Assembly: GCA_961205875.1 (NCBI GenBank)
Contig: OY540818.1
Span: 2,092,001 to 2,156,000 of the forward strand
DNA from: Sialis fuliginosa
Taxonomy: Eukaryota; Arthropoda; Insecta; Megaloptera; Sialidae
DNA: 64,000 bases
Direction: 5' to 3'
This document shows positions 126 to 45,388 of this stretch, piece after piece. The number at the start of each line of letters is the position of its first letter. Position 1 is the first letter of the stretch. Made by a program: the position numbers and the translations under genes. The notes under the pieces are model-generated. The model saw only the letters and a program-made list of their open reading frames with translations, was not told the DNA's origin and made no database searches.

Positions 126-390
126 GCATTTAACATAAACTAAATCATACACCTAAATAAACATATAACAACAACTGCAAATCGAATCGATTTGTATTAA
201 ATCGGTCTATTTTGATAATAAACGTCTCGATTCGTACCAATAATTATCGGATCAAATTATTTTCATTCAATTCCATCAGTTTGGATGCTTATCGGAAATT
301 TAGTGTTTAAATGACTAGATTTGACATTATTTGATGTAATTTGAGTCAAATGATGATTTTCGACTCAATTCTTTTTTACAATTAAAAATA
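126..390 (+). repeat. 265-bp island, copy 1
   Basis: Non-satellite sequence of clearly higher GC, beginning GCATTTAAC and ending just before the first ATG of the TTTATG array. It contains a perfect dyad CAAATCGA-A-TCGATTTG at 178-194; this is the only copy with A at the centre, the others having C. It has three ATTTGA motifs exactly 10 bp apart at 319-348, and TTGAGTC/GACTCAA arms at 341-347 and 362-368. It belongs to the type A variants (CGTCTCG, ATAATTATCGG, GACTCAA) and shares GGATGCTT with copy 3. I do not recognise it, and no reading frame inside it looks coding. Confidence 0.95.
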
Positions 391-666
391 ATGTTTATGT
401 TTATGTTTATGTTTATGTTTATGTTTATGTTTATGCTTATGTTTATGTTTATGTTTATGTTTATGTTTATGTTTATGTTTATGTTTATGTTTATGTTTAT
501 GTTTATGTTTATGTTTATGTTTATGTTTATGTTTATGTTTATGTTTATGTTTATGTTTATGTTTATGTTTATGTTTATGTTTATGTTTATGTTTATGTTT
601 ATGTTTATGTTTATGTTTATGTTTATGTTTATGTTTATGTTTATGTTTATGTTTATGTTTATGTTT
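391..666 (-). repeat. (TTTATG)n array, right arm of island 1
   Basis: About 46 hexamers in the orientation opposite to the left arm, with one ATGCTT variant near 435. The long Met-Phe reading frame here is only the translation of the hexamer and is not a gene. Confidence 0.96.
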
Positions 667-821
667 ATATTTATGTTTAAATTTAAGTTTATGTTTTAAT
701 TTATGTTTAAATTTATGTTTATATTTATGCTTAACTTTATGTTTAAAATGTATGTTTAAATTTATCTACATAAATTTAAACATAAATTTAAACATATGTT
801 TAAATTTATGTACATAAATTT
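667..821. repeat. Transition from reversed repeats to forward repeats, copy 1
   Basis: Degenerate reversed dodecamers (TTTAAATTTATG and variants) follow the hexamer arm. Orientation then flips several times within about 65 bp, at an imperfect palindrome around ATCTACAT (758-777), a perfect 32-bp palindrome centred on CATATG (780-811) and a perfect 20-bp palindrome AAATTTATGTACATAAATTT (802-821). From there on the sequence is forward dodecamer. The same arrangement recurs after island 3. Confidence 0.9.
780..811. repeat. 32-bp perfect palindrome at a strand-switch point
   Basis: The sequence is self-complementary about CATATG, with arms running outward through TTTAAATTTATGT. It marks a head-to-head join between forward and reversed dodecamers. 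An identical palindrome lies at 5359-5390. Confidence 0.93.
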
Positions 822-2837
822 AAACATAAATTTAAACATAAATTTAAACTTAAATTTAAGCAAAAATTTAAACATAAATTTAAACATAAATTAAAACATA
901 AACATAAACATAAACATAAATTTAAACATAAATTTAAACATAAATTTAAACATAAATTTAAACTTAAATTTAAGCAAAAATTTAAACATAAATTTAAACA
1001 TAAATTTAAACATGAATTAAAACATAAACTTAAATTTAAACATAAATTTAAATATAAATTTAAACATAAATTAAAACATGAACTTAAATTTAAACATAAA
1101 TTTAAACTTAAATTTAAACATAAATTAAAACATAAACTTAAACATAAACTTAAACATAAATTTAAACATAAATTTAAACATAAATTTAAACATAAATTTA
1201 AACATAAATTTTAACATAAATTTAAACATAAATTAAAACATAAATTTAAACATAAATTTAAACATAAATTTAAACATAAATTAAAACATAAAAAAAAACA
1301 TAAACTTAAATTTAAACATAAATTTAAACATAAATTTAAACATAAATTTAAACATAAATTTAAACATAAATTTAAACATAAATTTAAACATAAATTTAAA
1401 CATAAATTAAAATATAAACATAAATTTTAACATAAATTTAAACATAAATAAAAATATAAACATAAATTTAAACATAAATTTAAACATAAATTTAAGCATA
1501 AATATAAACATAAATTTAAACATAAATTAAAACATAAACTTAAATTTAAACATAAATTTAAACATAAATTAAAACATAAATTAAAACATAAGCATAAACA
1601 TAAACATAAATTTAAACATAAATTTAAACATAAATTTAAACATAAATTTAAACATAAATTTAAACATAAATTTAAACATAAATTAAAACATAAATTAAAA
1701 CATAAACTTAAACATAAACTTAAACATAATCTTAAACATAAATTTAAACATAAATTTAACCATAAATTTAAACATAAATTTAAACATAAATTTAAACATC
1801 AATTTAAACAACAAATTTAAACATAAATTCAAACATAATTTTAAACATAAATTTAAACATAAATTTTAACATAAATTTAAACATAAATTAAAACATAAAT
1901 TTAAACATAAATTTAAACATAAATTTAAACATAAATTAAAACATAAAAAAAAACATAAACTTAAATTTAAACATAAATTTAAACATAAATTAAAATATAA
2001 ACATAAATTTTAACATAAATTTAAACATAAATAAAAATATAAACATAAATTTAAACATAAATTTAAACATAAATTTAAACATAAATTTAAGCATAAATAT
2101 AAACATAAATTTAAACATAAATTAAAATATAAACTTAAATTTAAACATAAATTTAAACATAAATTAAAACATAAATTAAAACATAAACATAAACATAAAC
2201 ATAAACATAAATTTAAACATAAATTTAAACATAAATTTAAACATAAATTTAAACATAAATTTAAACATAAATTTAAACATAAATTTAAACATAAATTAAA
2301 ACATAAATTAAAACATAAACTTAAACATAAACTTAAACATAATCTTAAACATAAATTTAAACATAAATTTAACCATAAATTTAAACATAAATTTAAACAT
2401 AAATTTAAACATCAATTTAAACAACAAATTTAAACATAAATTCAAACATAATTTTAAACATAAATTTAAACATAAATTTTAACATAAATTTAAACATAAA
2501 TTAAAACATAAATTTAAACATAAATTTAAACATAAATTTAAACATAAATTAAAACATAAATTAAAACATAAACTTAAATTTAAACATAAATTTTAACATA
2601 AATTTAAACATAAATTTAAACATAAATTTAAACATAAATTTAAACATAAATTTAAACATAAATTTAAACATAAATTTAAACATAAATTTAAACATAAATT
2701 AAAATATAAACTTAAATTTAAACATAAATTTAAACATAAATTAAATCTTAAACATAAACTTAAACATAAATTTAAACAACAAATTTTAACATAAATTTAA
2801 ACATAAATTAAAACATAAATTTAAACATAAATTTAAA
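822..2837 (+). repeat. Dodecamer satellite array CATAAATTTAAA
   Basis: Forward dodecamers with frequent variants (CATAAATTAAAA, CATAAACTTAAA, CATAAATTTTAA), short runs of three or four plain hexamers (about 897, 1591, 2187) and A8-A9 tracts (about 1290, 1945). Variant order repeats: the block with AATATAAACATAAATTTTAAC near 1409 returns near 1992, and the ACAACAAATTT marker near 1808 returns near 2421, giving a local higher-order period of about 0.6 kb. No gene seen. Confidence 0.95.
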
Positions 2838-3118
2838 CATAAACATAAACATAAACATAAACATAAACATAAACATAAACATAAACATAAACATAAACAT
2901 AAACATAAACATAAACATGAACATAAACATAAACATAAACATAAACATAAACATAAACATAAACATAAACATAAACATAAACATAAACATAAACATAAAC
3001 ATAAACATAAACATAAACATAAACATAAACATAAACATAAACATAAACATAAACATAAACATTAACATAAACATAAACATAAACATAAACATAAACATAA
3101 ACATAAACATAAACATAA
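2838..3118 (+). repeat. (CATAAA)n array, left arm of island 2
   Basis: About 47 hexamers with rare variants (CATGAA near 2917, CATTAA near 3061). This is the only complete unit in which the left arm is longer than the right arm. Confidence 0.96.
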
Positions 3119-3383
3119 GCATTTAACATAAACTAAATCATACACCTAAATAAACATATAACAACAACTGCAAATCGACTCGATTTGTATTAAATCGGTC
3201 TATTTTGATAATAAACGTCTCGATTCGTACCAATAATTATCGGATCAAATTATTTTCATTCAATTCCATCAGTTTGGATACTTATCGGAAATTTAGTGTT
3301 TAAATGACTAGATTTGACATTATTTGATGTAATTTGAGTCAAATGATGATTTTCGACTCAATTCTTTTTTACAATTAAAAATA
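3119..3383 (+). repeat. 265-bp island, copy 2
   Basis: A full-length type A copy (CGTCTCG, ATAATTATCGG, CGGAAATTTAG, GACTCAA). The dyad CAAATCGA-C-TCGATTTG is at 3171-3187. It differs from copies 1 and 3 by GGATACTT in place of GGATGCTT, a state shared with all later copies. No gene-like frame. Confidence 0.95.
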
Positions 3384-3547
3384 ATGTTTATGTTTATGTT
3401 TATGTTTATGTTTATGTTTATGTTTATGTTTATGTTTATGTTTATGTTTATGTTTATGTTTATGTTTATGTTTATGTTTATGTTTATGTTTATGTTTATG
3501 TTTATGTTTATGTTTATGTTTATGTTTATGTTTATGTTTATGTTTAT
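3384..3547 (-). repeat. (TTTATG)n array, right arm of island 2
   Basis: About 27 reversed hexamers, the shortest right arm beside a full-length island. Confidence 0.95.
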
Positions 3548-3766
3548 ATTTATGCTTATATTTATGTTTAAATTTATGTTTAAATTTATGTTTAAATTTA
3601 AGTTTATGTTTTAATTTATTTTTAAATGTATGTTTAAAATGTATGTTTAAATTTATGTTTCAATTTATGTTTAAATTTATGTTTAAATTTATCTACATAA
3701 ATTTAAACATAAATTTAAACATATGTTTAAATTTAAACATATGTTTAAATTTATGTACATAAATTT
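3548..3766. repeat. Transition and strand-switch palindromes, copy 2
   Basis: Reversed dodecamers carry ATGTTTCAATTTATG-type variants and then flip repeatedly: an ATCTACAT near-palindrome, CATATG centres at 3720-3725 and 3738-3743, and the perfect 20-bp palindrome AAATTTATGTACATAAATTT at 3747-3766. The extra CATATG centre relative to copies 1 and 3 suggests a small local duplication. Confidence 0.88.
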
Positions 3767-4567
3767 AAACATAAATTTAAACTTAAATTTAAGCAAAAAT
3801 TTAAACATAAATTTAAACATAAATTTAAACATAAATTAAAACATAAACTTAAATTTAAACATAAATTAAAACATAAACTTAATTTAAACATAAATTAAAA
3901 CATAAACTTAAATTTAAACAAAAATTTAAACATTAATTTAAACTTAAATTTAAACATAAATTTAAACATAAATTTAAACATAAATTTAAACATAAATTTA
4001 AACATAAATTTAAACATAAATTTAAACTTAAATTTAAACATAATTTAAAACATAAACTTAAACATAAACTTAAACATAAATTTAAACATAAATTTAAACA
4101 TAAATTTAAACATAAATTTAAACATAAATTTAAACATAAATTTAAGCATAAATTTAAACATAAATTTAAACATAAATTAAAACATATATTAAAACATAAA
4201 TTAAAACATAAACTTAAACATAAACTTAAAGATAAACTTAAACATAAATTTAAACTTAATTTTAAACATAAATTTAAACATAAATTTAAACATAAATTTA
4301 AACATAAACTTAAACATAAACTTAAACATAAATTTAAACATAAATTTAAACATAAATTAAAACATAAATTTAAACATAAATTTAAACATAAATTTAAACA
4401 TAAATTAAATCTTAAACATAAACTTAAACATAAATTTAAACATAAATTTAAACATAAATTAAAACATAAACTTAAATTTAAACATAAATTTAAACATAAA
4501 TTTAAACAACAAATTTTAACATAAATTTAAACATAAATTAAAACATAAATTTAAACATAAATTTAAA
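3767..4567 (+). repeat. Dodecamer satellite array
   Basis: Forward dodecamers with CTTAAA and TTAAAA variants and an ACAACAAATTTT variant marker near 4507, comparable to the one near 2775. No gene seen. Confidence 0.95.
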
Positions 4568-4698
4568 CATAAACATAAACATAAACATAAACATAAACAT
4601 AAACATAAACATAAACATAAACATAAACATAAACATAAACATAAACATAAACATAAACATAAACATAAACATAAACATAAACATAAACATAAACATAA
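4568..4698 (+). repeat. (CATAAA)n array, left arm of island 3
   Basis: About 22 uninterrupted hexamers. Confidence 0.96.
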
Positions 4699-4963
4699 GC
4701 ATTTAACATAAACTAAATCATACACCTAAATAAACATATAACAACAACTGCAAATCGACTCGATTTGTATTAAATCGGTCTATTTTGATAATAAACGTCT
4801 CGATTCGTACCAATAATTATCGGATCAAATTATTTTCATTCAATTCCATCAGTTTGGATGCTTATCGGAAATTTAGTGTTTAAATGACTAGATTTGACAT
4901 TATTTGATGTAATTTGAGTCAAATGATGATTTTCGACTCAATTCTTTTTTACAATTAAAAATA
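4699..4963 (+). repeat. 265-bp island, copy 3
   Basis: A type A copy with the dyad at 4751-4767 (C at the centre). It shares GGATGCTT and the whole right-flank structure with copy 1, so it is the partner of copy 1 in the roughly 4.6-kb duplication. Confidence 0.95.
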
Positions 4964-5246
4964 ATGTTTATGTTTATGTTTATGTTTATGTTTATGTTTA
5001 TGTTTATGTTTATGTTTATGTTTATGTTTATGTTTATGTTTATGTTTATGTTTATGTTTATGTTTATGTTTATGTTTATGTTTATGTTTATGTTTATGTT
5101 TATGTTTATGTTTATGTTTATGTTTATGTTTATGTTTATGTTTATGTTTATGTTTATGTTTATGTTTATGTTTATGTTTATGTTTATGTTTATGTTTATG
5201 TTTATGTTTATGTTTATGTTTATGTTTATGTTTATGTTTATGTTTA
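4964..5246 (-). repeat. (TTTATG)n array, right arm of island 3
   Basis: About 47 uninterrupted reversed hexamers. It lacks the ATGCTT variant seen in the arm of copy 1. Confidence 0.96.
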
Positions 5247-5400
5247 TATTTATGTTTAAATTTAAGTTTATGTTTTAATTTATGTTTAAATTTATGTTTA
5301 TATTTATGCTTAACTTTATGTTTAAAATGTATGTTTAAATTTATCTACATAAATTTAAACATAAATTTAAACATATGTTTAAATTTATGTACATAAATTT
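5247..5400. repeat. Transition and strand-switch palindromes, copy 3
   Basis: Essentially the same as the segment after island 1: reversed dodecamers with ATATTTATGCTTAAC, an ATCTACAT near-palindrome, a perfect 32-bp palindrome at 5359-5390 and the 20-bp TATGTACATA palindrome at 5381-5400. Confidence 0.9.
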
Positions 5401-7964
5401 AAACATAAATTTAAACATAAATTTAAACTTAAATTTAAGCAAAAATTTAAACATAAATTTAAACATAAATTTAAACATAAATTTAAACTTAAATTTAAGC
5501 AAAAATTTAAACATAAATTTAAACATAAATTTAAACATAAATTAAAACATAAACTTAAATTTAAACATAAATTTAAATATAAATTTAAACATAAATTAAA
5601 ACTTAAACTTAAATTTAAACATAAATTTAAACATAAATTTAAACTTAAATTTAAACATAAATTAAAACATAAACTTAAACATAAACTTAAACATAAATTT
5701 AAACATAAATTTAAACATAAATTTAAACATAAATTTAAACATAAATTTAAACATAAATTAAAACATAAACTTAAATTTAAACTTAAATTTAAACATAAAT
5801 TTAAACATAAAATAAAACATAAATTAAAACATAAACATAAACATAAACATAAATTTAAACATAAATTTAAACATAAATTTAAACATAAATTTAAACTTAA
5901 ATTTAAGCAAAAATTTAAACATAAATTTAAACATAAATTTAAACATGAATTAAAACATAAACTTAAATTTAAACATAAATTTAAATATAAATTTAAACAT
6001 AAATTAAAACATAAACTTTAATTTAAACATAAATTTAAACTTAAATTTAAACATAAATTAAAACATAAACTTAAACATAAACTTAAACATAAATTTAAAC
6101 ATAAATTTAAACATAAATTTAAACATAAATTTAAACATAAATTTTAACATAAATTTAAACATAAATTAAAACATAAATTTAAACATTAATTTAAACATAA
6201 ATTTAAACATAAATTAAAACATAAAAAAAAACATAAACTTAAATTTAAACATAAATTTAAACATAAATTTAAACATAAATTTAAGCATAAATATAAACAT
6301 AAATTTAAACATAAATTAAAACATAAACTTAAATTTAAACATAAATTTAAACATAAATTAAAACATAAATTAAAACATAAGCATAAACATAAACATAAAT
6401 TTAAACATAAATTTAAACATAAATTTAAACATAAATTTAAACATAAATTTAAACATAAATTTAAACATAAATTAAAACATAAATTAAAACATAAATTTAA
6501 ACATCAATTTAAACAACAAATTTAAACATAAATTCAAACATAATTTTAAACATAAATTTAAACATAAATTTTAACATAAATTTAAACATAAATTAAAACA
6601 TAAATTTAAACATAAATTTAAACATAAATTTAAACATAAATTAAAACATAAAAAAAAACATAAACTTAAATTTAAACATAAATTTAAACATAAATTAAAA
6701 TATAAACATAAATTTTAACATAAATTTAAACATAAATAAAAATATAAACATAAATTTAAACATAAATTTAAACATAAATTTAAACATAAATTTAAGCATA
6801 AATATAAACATAAATTTAAACATAAATTAAAATATAAATTAAAATATAAACTTAAATTTAAACATAAATTTAAACATAAATTAAAACATAAATTAAAACA
6901 TAAACATAAACATAAACATAAACATAAATTTAAACATAAATTTAAACATAAATTTAAACATAAATTTAAACATAAATTTAAACATAAATTTAAACATAAA
7001 TTTAAACATAAATTAAAACATAAATTAAAACTTAAACATAAACTTAAACATAATCTTAAACATAAATTTAAACATAAATTTAACCATAAATTTAAACATA
7101 AATTTAAACATAAATTTAAACATCAATTTAAACAACAAATTTAAACATAAATTCAAACATAATTTTAAACATAAATTTAAACATAAATTTTAACATAAAT
7201 TTAAACATAAATTAAAACATAAATTTAAACATAAATTTAAACATAAATTTAAACATAAATTAAAACATAAATTAAAACATAAACTTAAATTTAAACATAA
7301 ATTTTAACATAAATTTAAACATAAATTTAAACATAAATTTAAACATAAATTTAAACATAAATTTAAACATAAATTTAAACATAAATTAAAATATAAACTT
7401 AAATTTAAACATAAATTTAAACATAAATTAAATCTTAAACATAAACTTAAACATAAATTTAAACATAAATTTAAACATAAATTAAAACATAAACTTAAAT
7501 TTAAACATAAATTTAAACATAAATTTAAACTTAAATTTAAACATAAATTAAAACATAAACTTAAACATAAACTTAAACATAAATTTAAACAAAAATTAAA
7601 ACATAAATTAAAACATAAACTTAAATATAAACTTAAACATAAATTTAAACATAAATTTAAACATAAATTTAAACATAAATTTAAACATAAATTTAAACAT
7701 AAATTTAAACATAAATTTAAACATAAATTTTAACTTTAATTTAAACATAAATTTAAACTTTAATTTAAACATAAATTTAAACATAAATTTCAACAAAAAT
7801 TTAAACATAAATTTAAACATAAATCTAAACATAAATTTAAACATAAATTTATACATAAATTTAAACATAAATTTATACATAAAATTAAACATAAATTTAA
7901 ACATAAATTTAAACAAAAATTTAAACATAAATTTAAACATAAATTTAAACATAAATTTATACAT
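5401..7964 (+). repeat. Dodecamer satellite array
   Basis: Forward dodecamers. Up to about 7430 the variant order follows the array after island 1 (hexamer triplets near 5830 and 6380, A8-A9 tracts near 6226 and 6649, ACAACAAATTT markers near 6511 and 7132). From about 7600 a different variant set appears (CATAAATTTATA, TTCAACAAAAATTT, AACTTTAATTT), which is also found in the 55.8-62.9 kb region. No gene seen. Confidence 0.94.
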
Positions 7965-8411
7965 ATGTTTAAGTTTAAGATTATATTTATGTTTATGTTT
8001 AAGTTAATGTTTAAGATTATGTTTTAATTGATGTTTAAATTCATGTTTAAATTTACGTTTAATTTGATGTTTAAGTTTATGTTTAAGATTATGTTTTAAT
8101 TTATGTTTAAATTTATGTATGAATTTATGTTTAATATTTTGTTTATGTTTATGTTTTAATTAATGTTTAAATTTATGTTAAAATTTATGTTTAAATTTAT
8201 GTTAAAATTTATGTTTAAATTTATGTTTAAAAATATGTTTATGTTTATGTTGAAGTTTATATTTAAGTTTATGTTTAAATTTATGTTTAAGTTTATGTTT
8301 TAATGTATGTTTAAATTTATGTTTGAATTTATGTTTAAGTTTATGTTTAAGTTTTTGTTTTAATTTATGTTTAAATTTATGTTTGAATTTATGTTTAAAT
8401 TTAGGTTTAAT
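7965..8411 (-). repeat. Inverted dodecamer block without an island (block R1)
   Basis: Orientation flips at a CATATG centre (7964/7965) and flips back near AGGTTTAATTTAAAC. The interior is degenerate reversed repeat with many private variants (TTAAGATTATG, TTACGTTTAATTTGATG, TTAATATTTTG, TTAGGTTTAA). Blocks of about 449 bp with nearly the same variant order lie at 50518 and 53300. Confidence 0.9.
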
Positions 8412-9360
8412 TTAAACATAAATTTAAATATAAACTTAAACATAAAATTAAACGTAAATTTAAACATAAATTAAAACATAAACTTAAACATAAACTTAAA
8501 CTTAAATTCAAACATAAATTTAAACATAAATTTAAACATAAATTAAATCTTAAACATAAACTTAAACATAAATTTAAACATAAATTTAAACATAAATTTA
8601 AACATAAGTTTAAACTTAAATTTAAGCATAAATTTAAACATAAATTTAAACATAAATTTAAACATAAATTAAAACATAAACTTAAATTTAAACATAAAAT
8701 TAAACATAAATTTAAACATAAATTAAAACATAAACTTAAATCTAAACATAAATTTTAACATAAATTTAAACATAAATTAAAACATAATATAAACTTAAAC
8801 ATAAATTTAAACATAAATTTAAACATAAATTTAAACATAAATTTAAACATAAATTTAAACATAAATTTAAACATAAATTTTAACTTTAATTTAAACATAA
8901 ATTTAACCATAAATTTAAACATAAATTTAAACATAAATTTAAACATCAATTTAAACAACAAATTTAAACATAAATTCAAACATAATTTTAAACATAAATT
9001 TAAACATAAATTTTAACATAAATTTATACATAAATTAAAACATAAATTTAAACATAAATTTAAACATAAATTTAAACATAAATTAAAACACAAATTAAAA
9101 CATAAACTTAAATTTAAACATAAATTTTAACATAAATTTAAACATAAATTTAAACATAAATTTAAACATAAATATAAACATAAATTTAAACATAAATTTT
9201 AACATAAATTTAAACATAAATTAAAACATAAATTTAAACATAAATTTAAACATAAATTTAAACATAAATTTAAACATAAATTTAAACATAAATTTAAACA
9301 TAAATTTAAACATAAATTTAAACATAAATTTAAACATAAATTTAAACATAAATTAAAACA
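8412..9360 (+). repeat. Dodecamer satellite array
   Basis: Forward dodecamers. The first part (AAATATAAACTTAAAC, AAATTAAACGTAAATTT) matches what follows the inverted blocks at 50967 and 53749. The last part is a regular run that ends directly at the truncated island, with no hexamer arm. Confidence 0.94.
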
Positions 9361-9541
9361 TGATAATAATAAACGCCTCGATTCGTACCAATAACAATCG
9401 GATCAAATTATTTTCATTCAATTCAATCAGTTTGGATACTTATCGGAAAATTAGTGTTTAAATGACTAGATTTGACATTATTTGATGTAATTTGAGTCAA
9501 ATGATGATTTTCGACCCAATTCTTTTTTACAATTAAAAATA
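9361..9541 (+). repeat. 265-bp island, copy 4, 5'-truncated
   Basis: Only the 3' two thirds of the island is present. It begins within TGATAATAAACG, so about 87 bp including the CAAATCGA dyad are missing, and the junction carries an extra AAT. It has type B states (CGCCTCG, ATAACAATCGG, GACCCAA) and the ATTCAATCAG state shared with copies 6 and 11. The left flank is dodecamer instead of hexamer array. This is a broken copy. Confidence 0.93.
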
Positions 9542-9604
9542 ATGTTTATGTTTATGTTGTTGTTTATGTTTAAGTTTATGTTTATGTTTATGTTTAAACA
9601 TAAA
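9542..9604 (-). repeat. Vestigial right arm of island 4 and closing palindrome
   Basis: Only about 50 bp of reversed hexamer remain, including the GTTGTTG and TTTAAG interruptions typical of right arms 6-9. They end at an 18-bp perfect palindrome TTTATGTTTAAACATAAA (9587-9604) that restores forward orientation. Confidence 0.9.
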
Positions 9605-14698: not shown

Positions 14699-14938
14699 CA
14701 TAAACATAAACATAAACATAAACATAAACATAAACATAAACATAAACATAAACATAAACATAAACATAAACATAAACATAAACATAAACATAAACATAAA
14801 CATAAACTTAAACATAAACATAAACATAAACATAAACATAAGCATAAACAAAAACATAAACATAAACATAAATATAAACATAAACATAAACATAAACATA
14901 AACATAAACATAAAACATAAACATAAACATAAACATAA
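14699..14938 (+). repeat. (CATAAA)n array, left arm of island 5
   Basis: About 40 hexamers with scattered variants (CTTAAA, AGCATAAACAAAAAC, AATATAAAC) and one 7-bp unit (CATAAAA) that shifts the phase. The same punctuation appears in left arms 6, 7 and 11, and part of it (the CATAAAA shift, AGCATAAACAAAAAC) in 8 and 9. Confidence 0.95.
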
Positions 14939-15203
14939 GCATTTAACATAAACTAAATCATACACCTAAATAAACATATAACAACAACTGCAAATCGACT
15001 CGATTTGTATTAAATCGGTCTATTTTGATAATAAACGCCTCGATTCGTACCAATAACAATCGGATCAAATTATTTTCATTCAATTCCATCAGTTTGGATA
15101 CTTATCGGAAATTTAGTGTTTAAATGACTAGATTTGACATTATTTGATGTAATTTGAGTCAAATGATGATTTTCGACCCAATTCTTTTTTACAATTAAAA
15201 ATA
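14939..15203 (+). repeat. 265-bp island, copy 5
   Basis: Full length, dyad at 14991-15007. It is a mosaic: CGCCTCG, ATAACAATCGG and GACCCAA are type B, but CGGAAATTTAG is the type A state. A long minus-strand frame (15140-15739) crosses from the right arm into this island; its non-repetitive end is only the island read backwards and is not evidence for a gene. Confidence 0.95.
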
Positions 15204-15712: not shown

Positions 15713-15862
15713 TAAGTTTATGTTTAAATTTAAGTTCATGTTTTAATTTATGTTTAAATTTATGTTCAAAATGTATGTTTAAATTTATGTTTAAGTTTAT
15801 GTTTAAAGTTATGTTTTAATTCATGTTTCAATTTATGTTTAAATTTATGTTTGAAGTTATGT
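15713..15862 (-). repeat. Reversed dodecamer transition, copy 5
   Basis: Degenerate reversed dodecamers (TTAAGTTCATGTTTTAA, AAAATGTATG, TTCATGTTTCAA) end at the TATGTACATA centre (15862/15863), where the sequence flips to forward. The same order of variants follows islands 6-10. Confidence 0.92.
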
Positions 15863-33100: not shown

Positions 33101-33160
33101 AACATAAATTTAAACATAAATTTAAACTTAAATTAAAACAAATTAAAACATAAACTTAAA
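24166..33160 (+). repeat. Dodecamer satellite array, 9 kb without an island
   Basis: Continuous forward dodecamers with nested higher-order periods (about 0.82 and 1.5 kb between blocks at 26874, 27698 and 29220). Recurring punctuation includes TTAAATCTTAAACATATAC, TTAAAACAAACTT, TTAAAGATAAATTT and ACATTAATTTAAACATTAA. The boundary between the two 10.15-kb units falls near 32105. No gene, RNA gene or unrelated insertion seen. Confidence 0.94.
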
Positions 33161-33424
33161 CATAAACATAAACATAAACATAAACATAAACATAAACATA
33201 AACATAAACATAAACATAAACATAAACATAAACATAAACATAAACATAAACATAAACATAAACATAAACATAAACATAAACATAAACATAAACATAAACA
33301 TAAACATAAACATAAACATAAACATAAACATAAACATAAGCATAAACAAAAACATAAACATAAACATAAACATAAACATAAACATAAACATAAACATAAA
33401 ACATAAACATAAACATAAACATAA
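33161..33424 (+). repeat. (CATAAA)n array, left arm of island 9
   Basis: About 44 hexamers; a duplicate of the arm at 23010 with one hexamer fewer. Confidence 0.95.
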
Positions 33425-33689
33425 GCATTTAACATAAACTAAATCATACACCTAAATAAACATATAACAACAACTGCAAATCGACTCGATTTGTATTAAA
33501 TCGGTCTATTTTGATAATAAACGCCTCGATTCGTACCTATAACAATCGGATCAAATTATTTTCATTCAATTCCATCAGTTTGGATACTTATCGGAAAATT
33601 AGTGTTTAAATGACTAGATTTGACATTATTTGATGTAATTTGAGTCAAATGATGATTTTCGACCCAATTCTTTTTTACAATTAAAAATA
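33425..33689 (+). repeat. 265-bp island, copy 9
   Basis: Appears identical to copy 8, including the CCTATAACAATCGG state. Dyad at 33477-33493. Confidence 0.95.
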
Positions 33690-34172
33690 ATGTTTATGTT
33701 TATGTTGTTGTTTATGTTTAAGTTTATGTTTATGTTTATGTTGATGTTTATGTTTATGTTTATGTTTATGTTTATGTTTATGTTTATGTTTATGTTTATG
33801 TTTATGTTTATGTTTATGTTTATGATTATGTTTATGTTTATGTTTATGTTTATGTATATGTTTATGTTTATGTTTATGTTTATGTTTATGTTTATGTTTA
33901 TGTTTATGTTTATGTTTATGTTTATGTTTATGTTTATGTTTATGTTTATGTTTATGATTATGTTTATGTTTATGTTTATGTTTATGTTTATGTTTATGTT
34001 TATGTTAATGTTTGTTTATTTTTATGTTTATGTTTATGTTTATGTTTATGTTTATGTTTATGTTTATGTTTATGTTTGTGTTTATGTTTATGTTTATGTT
34101 TATGTTTATGTTTATGTTTATGTTCATGTTTATGTTTATGTTTATGTTTATGTTTATGTTTATGTTTATGTT
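33690..34172 (-). repeat. (TTTATG)n array, right arm of island 9
   Basis: About 80 reversed hexamers with the same interruptions as arm 8 but 12 bp longer, the gain lying between the GTATATG and second TGATTATG variants. Confidence 0.95.
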
Positions 34173-34322
34173 TAAGTGTATGTTTAAATTTAAGTTCATG
34201 TTTTAATTTATGTTTAAATTTATGTTTAAAATGTATGTTTAAATTTATGTTTAAGTTTATGTTTAAAGTTATGTTTTAATTCATGTTTCAATTTATGTTT
34301 AAATTTATGTTTAAAGTTATGT
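34173..34322 (-). repeat. Reversed dodecamer transition, copy 9
   Basis: Duplicate of the segment after island 8, ending at the TATGTACATA flip. Confidence 0.92.
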
Positions 34323-37300
34323 ACATAAATTTAAACATAAATTTAAACATAAACTTAAACATAAATTTAAACATAACCTTAAACATAAATTTAAACATAA
34401 ATTTAAACATAAATTTAAACATAAATTTAAACATAAATTTAAACATAAATTTAAACAACAAATTTAAACATAAATTCAAACATAATTTTAAACATAAATT
34501 TAAACATAAATTTAAACATAAATTTAAACATAAATTTAAACATATATTTAAACATAAATTTAAAAATAAATTTAAATATAAATTAAAACAAACTTAAATT
34601 TAAACATAAATTTAAACATAAATTTAAACATAAATTTAAACATAAATTAAAACATAAATTTAAACATAAATTTAAACATAAATTTAAACATAAATTTAAA
34701 TATAAATTTAAACATAAATTTAAACATAAATTTAAACATAAATTTAAACATAAATTTAAACTTAAATTTAAAATTAAATTTAAACATAAATTAAATCTTA
34801 AACATATACTTAAACATAAACTTAAACATAAACTTAAACATAAATTTAAACATAAATTTAAACATAAATTTAAACATAAATTAAAACATAAATTTAAACA
34901 TAAATTTAAAAATAAATTTAAACATAAATTAAAACAAACTTAAATTTAAACATAAATTTAAACATAAATTTAAACATAAATTTAAACATAAATTTAAACA
35001 TAAATTTAAACATAAATTTAAACATAAATTTAAACATAAACTTAAATTTAAACATAAATTTAAACATAAATTTAAACTTAAATTTAAACATAAATTTAAA
35101 CATAAATTTAAACATAAATTTAAAGATAAATTTAAATTTAAATATAAATTTAAACATAAATTTAAACATAAATTTAAACATAAATTAAAACAAAAATTAA
35201 AACATAAACTTAAACATAAACTTAAACATAAATTAAAACATAAATTAAAACATAAACTTAAACATAAACTTAAACATAAACTTAAACATAAACTTAAACA
35301 TAAATTTAAACATAAATTTAAACATTAATTTAAACATTAATTTAAACATAAATTTAAACATAAATTTAAACTTAAATTTAAACATAAATTAAAACATAAA
35401 CTTAAACATAAACTTAAACATAAATTTAAATATAAATTTAAACATAAATTTTAATGTAATTTTGAACATAAATTTAAACATAAATTTAAACATAAATTTA
35501 AACATAAATTTAAACATAAATTTAAACATAAATTTAAACATAAATTTAAAAATAAATTAAAACATAAATTTAAACATAAATTTAAACATAAATTTAAACA
35601 TAAATTTAAACATAAATTTAAACATAAATTAAAACAAACTTAAATTTAAACATAAATTTAAACTTAAATTAAATCTTAAACATATACTTAAACATAAACT
35701 TAAACATAAACTTAAACATAAATTTAAACATAAATTTAAACATAAATTAAAACAAACTTAAATTTAAACATAAATTTAAACATAAATTTAAACATAAATT
35801 TAAACATAAATATAAACATAAATTTAAACATAAATTTAAACATAAATTTAAACATAAATTAAATCTTAAACATAAACTTAAACATAAATTTAAACATAAA
35901 TTTAAACATAAATTAAAACATAAACTTAAATTTAAACATAAATTCAAACATAAATTTAAACTTAAATTTAAACATAAATTTAAACATAAATTTAAACATA
36001 AATTTAAAGATAAATTTAAATTTAAATATAAATTTAAACATAAATTTAAACATAAATTTAAACATAAATTAAAACAAAAATTAAAACATAAACTTAAACA
36101 TAAACTTAAACATAAATTAAAACATAAATTAAAACATAAACTTAAACATAAACTTAAACATAAACTTAAACATAAACTTAAACATAAATTTAAACATAAA
36201 TTTAAACATTAATTTAAACATTAATTTAAACACAAATTTAAACATAAATTTAAACATAAATTTAAACATAAATTTAAACATAAATTTAAAAATAAATTAA
36301 AACATAAATTTAAACATAAATTTAAACATAAATTTAAACATAAATTTAAACATAAATTTAAACATAAATTTAAACATAAATTTAAACATAAATTTAAACA
36401 TAAATTTAAACATAAATTAAAACAAACTTAAATTTAAACATAAATTTAAACATAAATTATATCTTAAACATATACTTAAACATAAACTTAAACATAAACC
36501 TAAACATAAATTTAAACATAAATTTAAACATAAATTAAAACAAACTTAAATTTAAACATAAATTTAAACATAAATTTTAACATAAATTTAAACATAAATT
36601 TAAACATAAATTTAAACTTAAATTTAAACATAAATTTAAACATAAATTTAAACATAAATTAAATCTTAAACATAAACTTAAACATAAATTTAAACATAAA
36701 TTTAAACATAAATTAAAACATAAACTTAAATTTAAACATAAATTTAAATATAATATTAAACTTAAATTTAAACATAAATTTAAACATAAATTTAAACATA
36801 AATTTAAAGATAAATTAAAACAAAAATTAAAACATAAACTTAAACATAAACTTAAACATAAATTAAAACATAAATTAAAACATAAACTTAAACATAAACT
36901 TAAACATAAACTTAAACATAAACTTAAACATAAATTTAAACATAAATTTAAACATTAATTTAAACATTAATTTAAACATAAATTTAAACATAAATTTAAA
37001 CTTAAATTTAAACATAAATTAAAACATAAATTAAAACATAAATTTAAACATAAATTTAAACATAAATTTAAACATAAATTTAAACATAAATTTAAACATA
37101 AATTTAAACATAAATTTAAACATAAATTTAAACATAAATTTAAACATAAATTTAAACATAAATTTAAACATAATTTTAAACATAAATTTAAAAATAAATA
37201 TAAACATAAATTTAAACATAAATTTAAACATAAATTTAAACATAAATTTAAACATAAATTTAAACATAAATTTAAACATAAATTTAAACATAAATTTTAA

Positions 37301-40300
37301 CAAAAATTAAAACAAACTTAAATTTAAACATAAATTTAAACATAAATTAAATCTTAAACATATACTTAAACATAAACTTAAACATAAACTTAAACATAAA
37401 TTTAAACATAAATTTAAACATAAATTTAAACATAAATTAAAACATAAATTTAAACATAAATTTAAAAATAAATTTAAACATAAATTAAAACAAACTTAAA
37501 TTTAAACATAAATTTAAACATAAATTTAAACATAAATTAAAACATAAACTTAAATTTAAACATAAATTTAAATATAATATTAAACTTAAATTTAAACATA
37601 AATTTAAACATAAATTTAAACATAAATTTAAAGATAAATTAAAACAAAAATTAAAACATAAACTTAAACATAAACTTAAACATAAATTAAAACATAAATT
37701 AAAACATAAACTTAAACATAAACTTAAACATAAACTTAAACATAAACTTAAACATAAATTTAAACATAAATTTAAACATTAATTTAAACATTAATTTAAA
37801 CATAAATTTAAACATAAATTTAAACTTAAATTTAAACATAAATTAAAACATAAATTAAAACATAAATTTAAACATAAATTTAAACATAAATTTAAACATA
37901 AATTTAAACATAAATTTAAACATAAATTTAAACATAAATTTAAACATAAATTTAAACATAAATTTAAACATAAATTTAAACATAAATTTAAACATAATTT
38001 TAAACATAAATTTAAAAATAAATATAAACATAAATTTAAACATAAATTTAAACATAAATTTAAACATAAATTTAAACATAAATTTAAACATAAATTTAAA
38101 CATAAATTTAAACATAAATTTTAACAAAAATTAAAACAAACTTAAATTTAAACATAAATTTAAACATAAATTAAATCTTAAACATATACTTAAACATAAA
38201 CTTAAACATAAACTTAAACATAAATTTAAACATAAATTTAAACATAAATTTAAACATAAATTAAAACATAAATTTAAACATAAATTTAAAAATAAATTTA
38301 AACATAAATTAAAACAAACTTAAATTTAAACATAAATTTAAACATAAATTTAAACATAAATTTAAACATAAATTTAAACATAAATTAAATCTTAAACATA
38401 AACTTAAACATAAATTTAAACATAAATTTAAACATAAATTAAAACATAAACTTAAATTTAAACATAAATTTAAACATAAATTTAAACATAAATTTAAACA
38501 TAAATTTAAACATAAATTTAAACATAAATTTAAACATAAATTTAAACATAAATTTAAACATATATTTAAACATAAATTTAAACATAAATTTAAACATAAA
38601 TTTAAACATAAATTTAAACATAAATTTAAACATAAATTTAAACATAAATTTAAACATAAATTTAAACATAAATTAAAACAAACTTAAATTTAAACATAAA
38701 TTTAAACATAAATTATATCTTAAACATATACTTAAACATAAACTTAAACATAAACCTAAACATAAATTTAAACATAAATTTAAACATAAATTAAAACAAA
38801 CTTAAATTTAAACATAAATTTAAACATAAATTTAAACATAAATTTAAACATAAATTTAAACATAAATTTAAACATAAATTTAAACATAAATTTAAACATA
38901 AATTTAAACATAAATTTAAACATAAATTTAAACATAAATTTAAACATAAATTTAAACATAAATTAAATCTTAAACATAAACTTAAACATAAATTTAAACA
39001 TAAATTTAAACATAAATTAAAACATAAACTTAAATTTAAACATAAATTTAAATATAAATTTAAACTTAAATTTAAACATAAATTTAAACATAAATTTAAA
39101 CATAAATTTAAAGATAAATTTAAATTTAAATATAAATTTAAACATAAATTTAAACATAAATTTAGACATAAATTAAAACAAAAATTAAAACATAAACTTA
39201 AACATAAACTTAAACATAAATTAAAACATAAATTAAAACATAAACTTAAACATAAACTTAAACATAAACTTAAACATAAACTTAAACATAAACTTAAACA
39301 TAAATTTAAACATAAATTTAAACATTAATTTAAACATTAATTTAAACATAAATTTAAACATAAATTTAAACTTAAATTTAAACATAAATTAAAACATAAA
39401 TTAAAACATAAATTTAAACATAAATTTAAACATAAATTTAAACATAAATTTAAACATAAATTTAAACATAAATTTAAACATAAATTTAAACATAAATTTA
39501 AACATAAATTTAAACATAAATTTAAACATAAATTTAAACATAATTTTAAACATAAATTTAAAAATAAATATAAACATAAATTTAAACATAAATTTAAACA
39601 TAAATTTAAACATAAATTTAAACATAAATTTAAACATAAATTTAAACATAAATTTAAACATAAATTTTAACAAAAATTAAAACAAACTTAAATTTAAACA
39701 TAAATTTAAACATAAATTAAATCTTAAACATATACTTAAACATAAACTTAAACATTAACTTAAACATAAATTTAAACATAAATTTAAACATAAATTTAAA
39801 CATAAATTAAAACATAAATTTAAACATAAATTTAAAAATAAATTTAAACATAAATTAAAACAAACTTAAATTTAAACATAAATTTAAACATAAATTTAAA
39901 CATAAATTTAAACATAAATTTAAACATAAATTAAATCTTAAACATAAACTTAAACATAAATTTAAACATAAATTTAAACATAAATTAAAACATAAACTTA
40001 AATTTAAACATAAATTTAAACATAAATTTAAACATAAATTTAAACATAAATTTAAACATAAATTTAAACATAAATTTAAACATAAATTTAAACATAAATT
40101 TAAACATAAATTTAAACATATATTTAAACATAAATTTAAACATAAATTTAAACATAAATTATATCTTAAACATATACTTAAACATAAACTTAAACATAAA
40201 CCTAAACATAAATTTAAACATAAATTTAAACATAAATTAAAAAAACTTAAATTTAAACATAAATTTAAACATAAATTTAAACATAAATTTAAACATAAAT

Positions 40301-42541
40301 TTAAACATAAATTTAAACATAAATTTAAACATAAATTTAAACATAAATTTAAACATAAATTTAAACATAAATTTAAACATAAATTTAAACATAAATTTAA
40401 ACATAAATTAAATCTTAAACATAAACTTAAACATAAATTTAAACATAAATTTAAACATAAATTAAAACATAAACTTAAATTTAAACATAAATTTAAATAT
40501 AAATTTAAACTTAAATTTAAACATAAATTTAAACATAAATTTAAACATAAATTTAAAGATAAATTTAAATTTAAATATAAATTTAAACATAAATTTAAAC
40601 ATAAATTTAGACATAAATTAAAACAAAAATTAAAACATAAACTTAAACATAAACTTAAACATAAATTAAAACATAAATTAAAACATAAACTTAAACATAA
40701 ACTTAAACATAAACTTAAACATAAACTTAAACATAAACTTAAACATAAATTTAAACATAAATTTAAACATTAATTTAAACATTAATTTAAACATAAATTT
40801 AAACATAAATTTAAACTTAAATTTAAACATAAATTAAAACATAAATTAAAACATAAATTTAAACATAAATTTAAACATAAATTTAAACATAAATTTAAAC
40901 ATAAATTTAAACATAAATTTAAACATAAATTTAAACATAAATTTAAACATAAATTTTAACAAAAATTAAAACAAACTTAAATTTAAACATAAATTTAAAC
41001 ATAAATTAAATCTTAAACATATACTTAAACATAAACTTAAACATAAACTTAAACATAAACTTAAACATAAATTTAAACATAAATTTAAACATAAATTTAA
41101 ACATAAATTAAAACATAAATTTAAACATAAATTTAAAAATAAATTTAAACTTAAATTAAAACAAACTTAAATTTAAACATAAATTTAAACATAAATTTAA
41201 ACATAAATTTAAACATAAATTTAAACATAAATTAAATCTTAAACATAAACTTAAACATAAATTTAAACATAAATTTAAACATAAATTAAAACATAAACTT
41301 AAATTTAAACATAAATTTAAACATAAATTTAAACATAAATTTAAACATAAATTTAAACATAAATTTAAACATAAATTTAAACATAAATTTAAACATAAAT
41401 TTAAACATAAATTTAAACATAAATTTAAACATAAATTTAAACATAAATTTAAACATAAATTTAAACATAAATTTAAACATAAATTTAAACATAAATTTAA
41501 ACATAAATTTAAACATAAATTTAAACATAAATTTAAACAACAAATTTAAACATAAATTCAAACATAATTTTAAACATAAATTTAAACATAAATTTTAACA
41601 TAAATTTAAACATAAATTTAAACATAAATTAAAACATAAACTTAAATTTAAATATAAATTTAAACATAAATTTAAACTTAAATTTAAACATAAATTAAAA
41701 CATAAACTTAAACATAAACTTAAACATAAATTTAAACATAAATTTAAACATATATTTAAATATAAATTAAAACATAAATTTAAACATAAATTTAAAATAA
41801 AATTTAAACATAAATTAAAACAAACTTAAATTTAAACATAAATTAAAACAAACTTAAATTTAAACATAAATTTAAACATAAATTAAATCTTAAACATAAA
41901 CTTAAACATAAATTTAAACATAAATTTAAACATAAATTAAAACATAAACTTTAATTTAAACATAAATTTAAACATAAATTTAAACTTAAATTTAAACATA
42001 AATTTAAACATAAATTTAAACATAAATTTAAAGATAAATTTAAATTTAAATATAAACTTAAACTTAAACATAAACTTAAACATAAACTTAAACATAAATT
42101 TTAACATAAATTTAAACATAAATTTAAACATAAATTTAAACATAAATTTAAACATAAATTTAAACAACAAATTTAAACATAAATTCAAACATAATTTTAA
42201 ACATAAATTTAAACATAAATTTTAACATAAATTTAAACATAAATTAAAACATAAATTTAAACATAAATTTAAACATAAATTTAAACATAATATAAAACAT
42301 AAATTAAAACATAAACTTAATTTAAACATAAATTTAAACATAAATTTAAACATAAATTTAAACATAAATTTAAACATAAATTTAAACATAAATTAAAATA
42401 TAAACATAAATTTAAACATAAATTTAAACATAAATTTAATCATAAATTTAAGTATAAATATAAACATAAATTTAAACATAAATTAAAACATAAACTTAAA
42501 TTTAAACATAAATTAAACTTAAATTAAAACATAAATTAAAA
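34323..42541 (+). repeat. Dodecamer satellite array, 8.2 kb without an island
   Basis: Duplicate of the array after island 8, including nested blocks at 37031, 37855 and 39401 and the TTTTAATGTAATTTTGAAC marker near 35447. Two extra dodecamers lie between 38.67 and 39.40 kb. After 42288 it changes to the pre-arm segment typical of islands 5-7. No gene seen. Confidence 0.94.
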
Positions 42542-42631
42542 CATAAACATATACATAAACATAAACATAAACTTAAACATAAACATAAACATAAACATAA
42601 ACATAAAACATAAACATAAACATAAACATAA
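42542..42631 (+). repeat. (CATAAA)n array, left arm of island 10
   Basis: The shortest complete left arm, about 15 hexamers, with CATATA, CTTAAA and 7-bp CATAAAA variants. Confidence 0.93.
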
Positions 42632-42896
42632 GCATTTAACATAAACTAAATCATACACCTAAATTAACATATAACAACAACTGCAAATTTACTCGATTTG
42701 TATTAAATCGGTCTATTTTGATAATAAACGCCTCGATTCGTATCAATAACAATCGGATCAAATTATTTTCATTCAATTCCATCAGTTTGGATACTTATCG
42801 GAAAATTAGTGTTTAAATGACTAGATTTGACATTATTTGATGTAATTTGAGTCAAATGATGATTTTCGACCCAATTCTTTTTTACAATAAAAAAAA
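42632..42896 (+). repeat. 265-bp island, copy 10 (most diverged)
   Basis: Type B with several private substitutions: AATTAACATATA; the left dyad arm reads CAAATTTA in place of CAAATCGA (42684-42700), which breaks the dyad and removes a CpG; CGTATCAATAAC; and two T-to-A changes near the 3' end (ACAATAAAAAAA). It is still exactly 265 bp. Confidence 0.95.
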
Positions 42897-43166
42897 ATGT
42901 TTATGTTTATGTTGTTGTTTATGTTTAATTTTATGTTTATGTTTATGTTGATGTTTATGTTTATGTTTATGTTTATGTTTATGTTTATGTTTATGTTTAT
43001 GTTTATGTTTATGTTTATGTTTATGTTTATGTTTATGTTTATGTTTATGTTTATGTTTATGTTTATGTTTATGTTTATGTTTATGTTTATGTTTATGTTT
43101 ATGTTCATGTTTATGTTTATGTTTATGTTTATGTTTATGTTTATTTTTATGTTTATGTTTATGTTT
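42897..43166 (-). repeat. (TTTATG)n array, right arm of island 10
   Basis: About 45 reversed hexamers with GTTGTTG, TTTAATTTTATG, TTGATG and TTCATG variants and one TATTTTTATG near 43143. Confidence 0.94.
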
Positions 43167-43325
43167 AAGTTTATGTTTAAATTTAAGTTCATGTTTTAAT
43201 TTATGTTTAAATTTATGTTTAAAATGTATGTTTAAATTTATGTTTAAGTTTATGTTTAAAGTTATGTTTTAATTCATGTTTCAATTTATGTTAAAATTTA
43301 TGTTTAAATTTATGTACATAAATTT
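43167..43325 (-). repeat. Reversed dodecamer transition, copy 10
   Basis: Same order as after islands 5-9, but it ends in the perfect 20-bp palindrome AAATTTATGTACATAAATTT (43306-43325), which is otherwise seen only after islands 1-3. Copies 5-9 have AAAGTTATG on the left side. Confidence 0.92.
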
Positions 43326-44600
43326 AAACATAAATTTAAACATAAATCTAAACATAAATTTAAACATAAATTTAAACAACAAATTTAAACATAAATTCAA
43401 ACATAATTTTAAACATAAATTTAAACTTTAATTTAAACATTAATTTAAACAACAAATTTAAACATAAATTCAAACATAATTTTAAACATAAATTTAAACA
43501 TAAATTTAAACATAAATTTAAACATAAATTAAAACATAAATTTAAACATAAATTTAAACATAAATTTAAACATAAATTTAAACATAAATTTAAACATAAA
43601 TTTAAACATAAATTTAAACATAAATTTAAACATAAATTTAAACATAAATTAAAACATAAATTTAAACATAAATTTAAAAATAAATTTAAACATAAATTAA
43701 AACAAACTTAAATTTAAACATAAATTTAAACATAAATTTAAACATAAATTTAAACATAAATTAAATCTTAAACATAAACTTAAACATAAATTTAAACATA
43801 AATTTAAACATAAATTAAAACATAAACTTAAATTTAAACATAAATTTAACCATAAATTTAAACTTAAATTTAAACATAAATTTAAACATAAATTTAAACA
43901 TAAATTTAAAGATAAATTTAAATTTAAATATAAATTTAAACATAAATTTAAACATAAATTTAAACATAAATTTAAACATAAATTTAAACATAAATTTAAA
44001 CATAAATTTAAACATAAATTTAAACATAAATTTAAACATAAATTTAAACATAAATTTAAACATAAATTTAAACAACAAATTTAAACATAAATTTAAACAT
44101 AAATTTAAACATAAATTTAAACATAAATTTAAACATAAATTTAAACATAAATTCAAATATAATTTTAAACATAAATTTAAACATAAATTTTAACATAAAT
44201 TTAAACATAAATTAAAACATAAATTTAAACATAAATTTAAACATAAATTTAAATATAAATTAAAACATAAATTAAAACATAAACTTAAATTTAAACATAA
44301 ATTAAATCTTAAACATAAACTTAACATAAATTTAAACATAAATTTAAACATAAATTTAAACATAAATTAAAACAAAAACTTAAATTTAAATATAAATTTA
44401 AACATAAATTTAAACTTAAATTTAAACATAAATTAAAACATAAACTTAAACATAAACTTAAACATAAACTTAAACATAAATTTAATCATAAATTTAAGTA
44501 TAAATATAAACATAAATTTAAACATAAATTAAAACATAAACTTAAATTTAAACATAAATTTAAACTTAAATTAAAACATAAATTAAAACATAAACTTAAA
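43326..44600 (+). repeat. Dodecamer satellite array
   Basis: Forward dodecamers with ACAACAAATTT markers near 43378, 43451 and 44072 and TTAAAGATAAATTT near 43907, ending in the pre-arm segment before island 11. No gene seen. Confidence 0.95.
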
Positions 44601-44828
44601 CATAAACATAAACATAAACATAAACATAAACATAAACATAAACATAAACATAAACATAAACATAAACATAAACATAAACATAAACATAAACATAAACATA
44701 AACATAAACTTAAACATAAACATAAACATAAACATAAACATAAACATAAGCATAAACAAAAACATAAACATAAACATAAATATAAACATAAACATAAACA
44801 TAAAACATAAACATAAACATAAACATAA
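44601..44828 (+). repeat. (CATAAA)n array, left arm of island 11
   Basis: About 38 hexamers with the usual punctuation (CTTAAA, AGCATAAACAAAAAC, AATATAAAC, 7-bp CATAAAA). Confidence 0.95.
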
Positions 44829-45093
44829 GCATTTAACATAAACTAAATCATACACCTAAATAAACATATAACAACAACTGCAAATCGACTCGATTTGTAT
44901 TAAATCGGTCTATTTTGATAATAAACGCCTCGATTCGTACCAATAACAATCGGATCATATTATTTTCATTCAATTCAATCAGTTTGGATACTTATCGGAA
45001 AATTAGTGTTTAAATGACTAGATTTGACATTATTTGATGTAATTTGAGTCAAATGATGATTTTCGACTCAATTCTTTTTTACAATTAAAAATA
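44829..45093 (+). repeat. 265-bp island, copy 11
   Basis: Mosaic: CGCCTCG, ATAACAATCGG and CGGAAAATTAG are type B, but GACTCAA near the 3' end is the type A state. Private change GATCATATTA in place of GATCAAATTA. ATTCAATCAG is shared with copies 4 and 6. Dyad at 44881-44897. This is the last island in the window. Confidence 0.95.
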
Positions 45094-45388
45094 ATGTTTA
45101 TGTTTATGTTGTTGTTTATGTTTAAGTTTATGTTTATGTTTATGTTTATGTTTATGTTTATGTTTATGTTTATGTTTATGTTTATGTTTATGTTTATGTT
45201 TATGTTTATGTTTATGTTTATGTTTATGTTTATGTTTATGTTTATGTTTATGTTTATGTTTATGTTTATGTTTATGTTTATGTTTATGTTTATGTTTATG
45301 TTTATGTTTATGTTTATGTTTATGTTTATGTTTATGTTTATGTTTATGTTTATGTTTATGTTTATGTTTATGTTTATGTTTATGTTTA
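45094..45388 (-). repeat. (TTTATG)n array, right arm of island 11, abruptly ended
   Basis: About 49 reversed hexamers. Unlike every other full-length unit, no reversed dodecamer transition and no TATGTACATA flip follow. The array breaks at TTTATTATATAAATATAAAC straight into forward dodecamers, which suggests a deletion or rearrangement breakpoint. Confidence 0.93.

Follow-up and report, generated by a model that had tools for sequence, protein, structure and literature searches.

The stretch of DNA considered here (the window) comprises 64,000 nucleotides, i.e., positions 2092001-2156000 of contig 10 (C10) in an assembly of 392 Mb and 20 contigs, and it is filled from end to end by a satellite. 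Within this satellite a unit recurs that is composed of a 268-bp island of non-satellite sequence, flanked by an array of the hexamer CATAAA on the left and by an array of its reverse complement, TTTATG, on the right. The unit is probably a foldback-shaped composite satellite unit that has been amplified by local duplication, rather than an active transposon.

The window harbors ten full islands, which start at positions 126, 3119, 4699, 14939, 17227, 20117, 23280, 33425, 42632 and 44829, are 268 bp long by alignment and all lie on the + strand. The identity of window islands to the first copy is 95-100% (blastn and alignment), and 17 of the 268 columns vary among the ten full copies. An eleventh copy (9366-9544) is missing its first 89 bases, and its right arm measures just 52 bp. 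An earlier note on this DNA had described a (CATAAA)n, 265-bp island, (TTTATG)n structure that appears ten times in the same order and orientation; the order, the orientation and the count of full copies were confirmed, while the length is corrected to 268 bp and the truncated copy is added. Similarity of the island to the satellite is limited to the first 51 bases, with no match beyond these at an E-value of 0.001. The units are listed below in window positions (islands from blastn and alignment, those at 23280 and 33425 from alignment; arm limits from strict wraparound alignment).

1-125, +, left arm (CATAAA)n of island 1, clipped by the window edge
126-393, +, island 1, 268 bp, group A
394-679, -, right arm (TTTATG)n of island 1, then inverted 12-mers to about 768
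2834-3118, +, left arm of island 2
3119-3386, +, island 2, group A
3387-3570, -, right arm of island 2
4564-4698, +, left arm of island 3
4699-4966, +, island 3, group A
4967-5258, -, right arm of island 3
9366-9544, +, truncated island without its first 89 bases and without a left arm (also from segmentation)
9545-9596, -, short right arm of the truncated island
14684-14938, +, left arm of island 14939
14939-15206, +, island, group B
15207-15726, -, right arm of island 14939, then inverted 12-mers to about 15866
17008-17226, +, left arm of island 17227
17227-17494, +, island, group B
17495-17918, -, right arm of island 17227
19934-20116, +, left arm of island 20117
20117-20384, +, island, group B
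20385-20974, -, right arm of island 20117
22995-23279, +, left arm of island 23280
23280-23547, +, island, group B, exactly identical to island 33425
23548-24017, -, right arm of island 23280
33146-33424, +, left arm of island 33425
33425-33692, +, island, group B, inside a segmental duplication
33693-34174, -, right arm of island 33425
42539-42631, +, left arm of island 42632
42632-42899, +, island, group B
42900-43179, -, right arm of island 42632
44586-44828, +, left arm of island 44829
44829-45096, +, island, group B
45097-45389, -, right arm of island 44829, ending abruptly in + satellite

Every full island stands between (CATAAA)n on the left and (TTTATG)n on the right. In the ten full copies the left arms are 93-285 bp long (the first, at 125 bp, is the clipped one) and the right arms 184-590 bp, with alignment scores of 72-271 for CATAAA and 163-495 for TTTATG; the best scores at 3,000 random satellite positions were 30 and 17, respectively. 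Within the window, pure runs of at least six hexamers are found beside islands only, and the longest pure run away from islands is composed of five CATAAA or two TTTATG units, which agrees with the earlier claim that long pure hexamer arrays occur nowhere else in the window. A 30-base pure hexamer sequence occurs 568 times, compared with 0 in 100 shuffles. The two arms of a unit are reverse complementary, as had been proposed together with the foldback shape: when the arms of each of the ten full copies are aligned with one another, 90-275 bases pair at best, and the longest stem without a mismatch measures 34-143 bp.

The arms extend past the hexamers. The right arm often passes into inverted 12-mers, after which the orientation reverts; on the other side, the + satellite looks like a diverged extension of the left arm, because its 12-mer is CATAAA plus TTTAAA. 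In eight C10 copies (2050240-2064486) that have identical islands across the 45 columns displayed, the left-arm lengths range from 64 to 471 bp. The right ends are 96-100% alike within group B, and the two group A ends that were compared are identical. A TTGTTG interruption in the inner right arm is common to C10 (window 15207-15240) and contig 1 (C1; positions 450-490 of the sampled stretch L044). This common interruption suggests that the innermost right arm is passed on along with the island, and that turnover affects the outer hexamers.

The surrounding satellite is itself related to the arms, as seen from its repeat unit:

768-64000, +, background satellite, 12-mer ACATAAATTTAA (CATAAA + TTTAAA), from Tandem Repeats Finder, 84% matches to the consensus; islands and inverted segments lie inside it

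Its 12-mer corresponds to two copies of the arm hexamer with 2 of the 12 bases changed. The G+C content of the window outside the islands is about 10%, and random satellite stretches align to each other at 89%. At C10:1809400 (L034:9400) the array has a sharp edge, where the first 12-mers are CATAAACTTAAA, a dimer that is intermediate between the pure hexamer and the core 12-mer, CATAAATTTAAA. This edge looks as though an older state of the satellite persists there.

The relation between arms and satellite is relevant to a scenario in which the unit is a fossil foldback transposon, i.e., a single insertion whose arms seeded the 12-mer satellite and whose island is the remnant of a middle domain, now immobile. 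It is compatible with the composite satellite unit proposed above, from which it differs only in the origin of the unit, such that their probabilities overlap; taken on its own it is a tentative possibility. This origin fits the layout, in which a middle that has no recognised domain is enclosed by long, inverted arrays of short tandem repeats, and it fits the derivation of the 12-mer as a diverged arm-hexamer dimer and the intermediate at the array edge; there are precedents in Tetris (PMC4079207) and in the (AAACAT)n satellite that arose from the DM412B LTR in D. mauritiana (PMC8794474), both as described in excerpts of these papers, to which all citations below also refer. However, no copy was found with defined outer ends, a target-site duplication or a transposase (no search aimed at an autonomous relative was made), and the hexamer array could equally predate the island.

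The assembly was searched with 42-base and 44-base cores taken from opposite island ends and with a 28-base core, using reversed sequences as controls. The 42-base core gave, with at most three mismatches, 432 forward and 337 reverse matches, i.e., 769 (reversed control 0); the 44-base core gave 329 and 292, and the 28-base core gave 916 and 710, i.e., 1,626 (controls 1 and 0). Two lists of positions are complete: one of 21/21 matches (5 on C1, 2 on contig 9 (C9) and 14 on C10) and one of 70/70 (4 on C1 and 66 on C9); the others hold the best 40 of 1,445 candidates or about 100 matches per core search. Among the matches listed, islands are found only on C1, contig 5 (C5), C9 and C10, in one block on each, and no copy lies outside these four blocks. 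Sixty units were read from the four contigs. Of the 56 that show both flanks, 55 have the structure CATAAA-island-TTTATG in + coordinates, and the lone exception is a partial island on C1 that lacks its right half. At L044:1441-1660 (C1:32689506) a partial island breaks off in mid-island into + satellite, which mirrors the left-truncated island at 9366. Islands are absent from two further C10 stretches that were read, L036 (2.230-2.240 Mb) and L042 (2.260-2.264 Mb).

Among 15 chosen copies, islands on different contigs differ by about 3-5%. Island alleles are contig-specific (C9 versus C10, C1 versus C5), which suggests that exchange takes place mainly within chromosomes. These alleles also bear on the concern that collapsed or mis-joined satellite reads generated the inverted structures. 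Satellite arrays are hard to assemble, but the same anatomy is found with contig-specific alleles on four separate contigs and arm lengths differ from copy to copy, which makes an assembly artefact very improbable.

Close copies of the unit have been duplicated together with their surroundings. The segment 21110-32332 of the window recurs at 31224-42500, with 98.3% identity over 11.3 kb, and this segmental duplication carries island 33425 with its flanks. Distance and variable-column analyses were based on 49 copies, after the C10 rows 1916936, 2073516, 2079760, 2085997 and 2101366, all truncated or cut, had been dropped. On C10, the difference between islands rises with physical distance (n=43, Spearman 0.30, matched by 3 of 5000 permutations), and identical pairs account for 41/155 of those spaced <20 kb, 8/337 at 20-100 kb and 0/411 at >100 kb. 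Island identity also predicts flank identity, with coefficients of 0.275 on the left (7/1000 permutations) and 0.298 on the right (0/1000), using complete matches only and the alignment before row clean-up. For identical islands, the 300-bp right flanks have a median identity of 100% (28 of 51 pairs at ≥95%), and the left flanks a median of 91%, near the satellite's own 89% (14 of 50 pairs at ≥95%).

The orientation of the units is coherent over long blocks. On C9, all 66 islands of the complete list are +. On C10, 37/38 of the matches listed between 1.874 and 2.201 Mb are +, while all 14 between 1.817 and 1.871 Mb are - (complete list). On C1, the matches listed at 32.112-32.260 Mb are - in 31/31 cases and then + in 4/4, and on C5, those listed at 32.441-32.622 Mb are all - and then + in 7/7. 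Over the wider intervals C1 32.11-32.70 Mb and C5 32.44-32.83 Mb, the islands listed change from - at the left to + at the right of each array. The background is inverted along with the - unit on both C1 and C5, where one unit was sampled on each. In the + block of C10, the single lone flipped unit is that at C10:2087461, which shares its allele with its + neighbours. Read in reverse complement, its end matches the junction where the arm of the left neighbour stops on the right; this correspondence suggests inversion of one entire period at that place and not the arrival of a new element.

Taken together, the near-uniform orientation, the identical islands that are close neighbours and tend to share flanks, and the lack of any exact island end beside a base other than that of the arm resemble the spread of a satellite and not insertion of a transposon. 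A foldback transposon that is still mobile and prefers this satellite as its target would account for the foldback shape and the blocks on four contigs, as well as for four C10 islands opposed to their background and about 850 copies without a place (see below). Yet, orientation is near-uniform across long blocks, identical copies adjoin and tend to share flanks, no exact end was seen beside a base other than that of the arm, and the lone flipped unit at C10:2087461 looks like an inverted whole period. Present mobility is therefore quite unlikely, and none of the placed copies supports a mobile-element reading. A target-site duplication was not found, and none would be recognisable here, because the surroundings are a 6/12-bp repeat. 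The earlier note had proposed a foldback-type mobile element or a satellite unit descended from one; the shape and the satellite unit stand, whereas mobility does not, given the four blocks, the uniform orientation and the shared flanks. It had also pointed to island copies at independent sites as the evidence to look for, and to islands confined to the satellite with the same surrounding repeats as the opposite outcome. The matches listed all lie within the four satellite blocks and 55 of the 56 units read with both flanks have the same arms, a picture close to the latter but incomplete by the unplaced matches.

Several observations weigh against amplification by local duplication, or limit how far it extends. 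When all pairs are considered, the flanks beyond the arms are no closer than random satellite (null median 0.893; left 0.887; right 0.807), i.e., co-duplication is visible among close copies only. The low right-flank value is due to orientation switches at differing points, and this all-pair test is without power because random satellite already aligns at 89%. Four C10 islands (1851743, 1857933, 2087461 and 1870459, the last with a background call that rests on 158 bp of its left side) are - within a + background, which goes beyond plain duplication. In favour of duplication, the 392 Mb contain no exact right island end that continues with anything but T and no exact left end whose outer neighbour is anything but A, although these searches covered one base beside exact ends, used the C10-type allele for the left end and have no denominator. 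Most of the loci read were best-scoring matches (best 40 of 1,445), a choice that favours full copies that are alike. Furthermore, about 850 core matches (1,626 versus 769) have no known place and could lie outside the satellite; further copies on contigs after C10 are not excluded, as places are known for part of the matches. Across 118 kb of array, made up of the window plus ten stretches of which several were picked for islands, the 28-base core found 24 copies and the 42-base core 21. Because the shorter core adds only three copies there, most of the extra matches probably come from stretches other than those read, and they may represent diverged or cut copies. A diverged subtype at the left edge of C10 was considered as their source and rejected, with just 13 matches, all at that edge.

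The island resembles no known family in the searches made. Its five reading frames gave no Pfam family above the curated cut-off, the best match being 24 residues to VTC (E 0.0074, 16.3 bits versus a cut-off of 23). As a known RNA it gave no Rfam match at gathering scores and four weak sub-threshold ones in the stretch 50-450, and no tRNA was found using the bacterial code. Exact island patterns of 28 and 26 bases had no match in viral_contigs or genome_contigs; comparison with plasmids gave no match at E 0.1 and that with phage only matches of 22-41 bases at E 0.3-0.9. In the satellite literature, hexamer strings (TTTATG, AAACAT and longer ones) led, among the matches listed, to only one relevant case, that of D. 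mauritiana (PMC8794474).

The island and arms could alternatively have been retained by selection as a (peri)centromeric structure, in which the arms extrude a hairpin or cruciform and a protein binds the island as its loop. The occurrence of one block per contig on four contigs, in the places listed, hints at a (peri)centromeric location, but is suggestive only. Islands that are 95-100% like the first copy within the window and about 3-5% apart between contigs (the 15 chosen copies), together with arm alignments that pair 90-275 bases, are consistent with such a role, and conservation of 98-99% is described for the TmSat1 inversion sites of Tribolium madens, where loops are suggested as protein-binding targets (PMC13081366). 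However, no test indicates constraint on the island: variable columns are distributed evenly over its halves (25/134 versus 21/134, Fisher p=0.63), the folding energy of the island RNA is like that of shuffles (z -1.17 and -0.38), and the window contains 0 CENP-B-box cores. Homogenisation can give the same similarity and could account for it alone. A selected structure is unlikely.

In addition to the units, the window contains inverted satellite segments without an island, identified by orientation segmentation:

7960-8412, -, island-free; its end is 94.6% identical to the end of the right arm on C5 over the last 100 bp
18764-19290, -, island-free
50519-50968, -, island-free, family of 7960-8412 (99%)
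53299-53748, -, island-free, family of 7960-8412 (100%, last 100 bp)

Because the ends of three of these four segments resemble the right side of the C5 unit (93.6-94.6% over the last 100 bp, where other, unrelated ends range over 81-95%), these three may, as a weak suggestion from sequence similarity, be units that lost their island. A higher-order period of about 2.79 kb, free of islands, is seen at 48170-56105, where 48170-53300 and 50962-56105 are 93.9% identical. The satellite goes on through the last 18.6 kb of the window (45390-64000) with zero islands. Elsewhere in the assembly, contig 20 (15,590 bp) holds ND3, COX3, ATP6 and COX2 frames in the invertebrate mitochondrial code (names assigned by eye). 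Together with the telomere repeats of C9 described below, these frames make an insect the likely source.

A foldback-shaped composite satellite unit amplified by local duplication could have arisen as follows. A 268-bp non-satellite sequence marks the inversion point where (CATAAA)n gives way to (TTTATG)n, and the composite unit around it probably formed once. The unit would then have multiplied with the surrounding satellite via segmental duplication and unequal exchange, giving blocks on at least four contigs, while the pure hexamer arms would change length independently, by slippage, in the manner of microsatellites. The paired inverted arms plausibly also favour local inversions, via recombination or template switching.

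TTAGG-type telomere repeats are found at the start of C9, and these repeats and the 20 contigs contrast with Tribolium. It is in Tribolium that the closest described organisation is found, i.e., the macro-dyad symmetries of its satellites, which were stated in 2026 to be documented in that genus only (PMC13081366). Both systems have inverted satellite subarrays around a highly conserved inversion site in very many copies, a potential to form long hairpins, an insect host and a distribution over several chromosomes (PMC13081366). Here, the inverted subarrays are seen in the segmentation and in the block-level inversions on C1 and C5, and the conserved, recurrent site in the 769 core matches and the 95-100% identity of window copies. 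In contrast, the inversion sites of Tribolium are degenerate satellite subunits (PMC13081366), whereas the 268-bp sequence found here is non-satellite, given its lack of any match past base 51. The symmetries of Tribolium are also kilobases long and tend to balance (PMC13081366), unlike the strongly unequal arms described here, of which the right is mostly 0.1-1 kb and the left side reaches up to 9 kb. TmSat4/(AC)n of Tribolium madens likewise has a fixed sequence regularly parted by microsatellite runs of variable length, with the microsatellite as a spacer between repeats (PMC13081366); in the present unit the microsatellite makes up the inverted arms, and its hexamer recurs in the satellite.

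In shape and fate the unit resembles foldback elements, especially Tetris, the arm repeats of which turned into heterochromatic satellite arrays (PMC4079207). Tetris and the Drosophila foldback elements share with it long inverted repeats that bear tandem repeats around a variable, non-coding middle (PMC4079207), and here such termini, made of short tandem repeats, occur in the ten full window copies and in 55/56 of the wider sample. In Tetris the arm repeat is about 220 bp long, a defined flanking domain is present, target-site duplications measure 8-10 bp and copies occur on every chromosome (PMC4079207); the arm repeat here is 6 bp, and no such duplication or dispersed copy was found among the matches listed. 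Nor is the orientation independent of the neighbours, being near-uniform among the copies listed, with C10:2087461 as the lone exception. The (AAACAT)n Y satellite of D. mauritiana, with 764 copies on the Y, uses the same hexamer, as AAACAT is a rotation of CATAAA, and it grew from a few copies within a mobile element; its source was an LTR retrotransposon, and an island or inverted arms are unmentioned in the excerpt (PMC8794474).

These findings extend the mirror-image organisation of satellites beyond Tribolium to a further, probably insect, genome. The non-satellite loop that marks every inversion point is a feature absent from the Tribolium description, as excerpted (PMC13081366). A more far-reaching view, which we regard as speculative and rather improbable, is that the (peri)centromeric satellite of a non-Tribolium insect is built of many hundreds, perhaps >1,000, foldback-shaped units, where the 268-bp loop, held on a hairpin of the inverted hexamer arms, is the conserved part that a protein recognises and the arms act as a machine for inversion and amplification. 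The hundreds of islands with contig-specific alleles are markers in a satellite that is otherwise too uniform, and they allow array growth, interchromosomal exchange and inversion to be traced copy by copy. The system also offers a clear case for the question of whether foldback-shaped units give rise to satellites, or satellites to the foldback shape.

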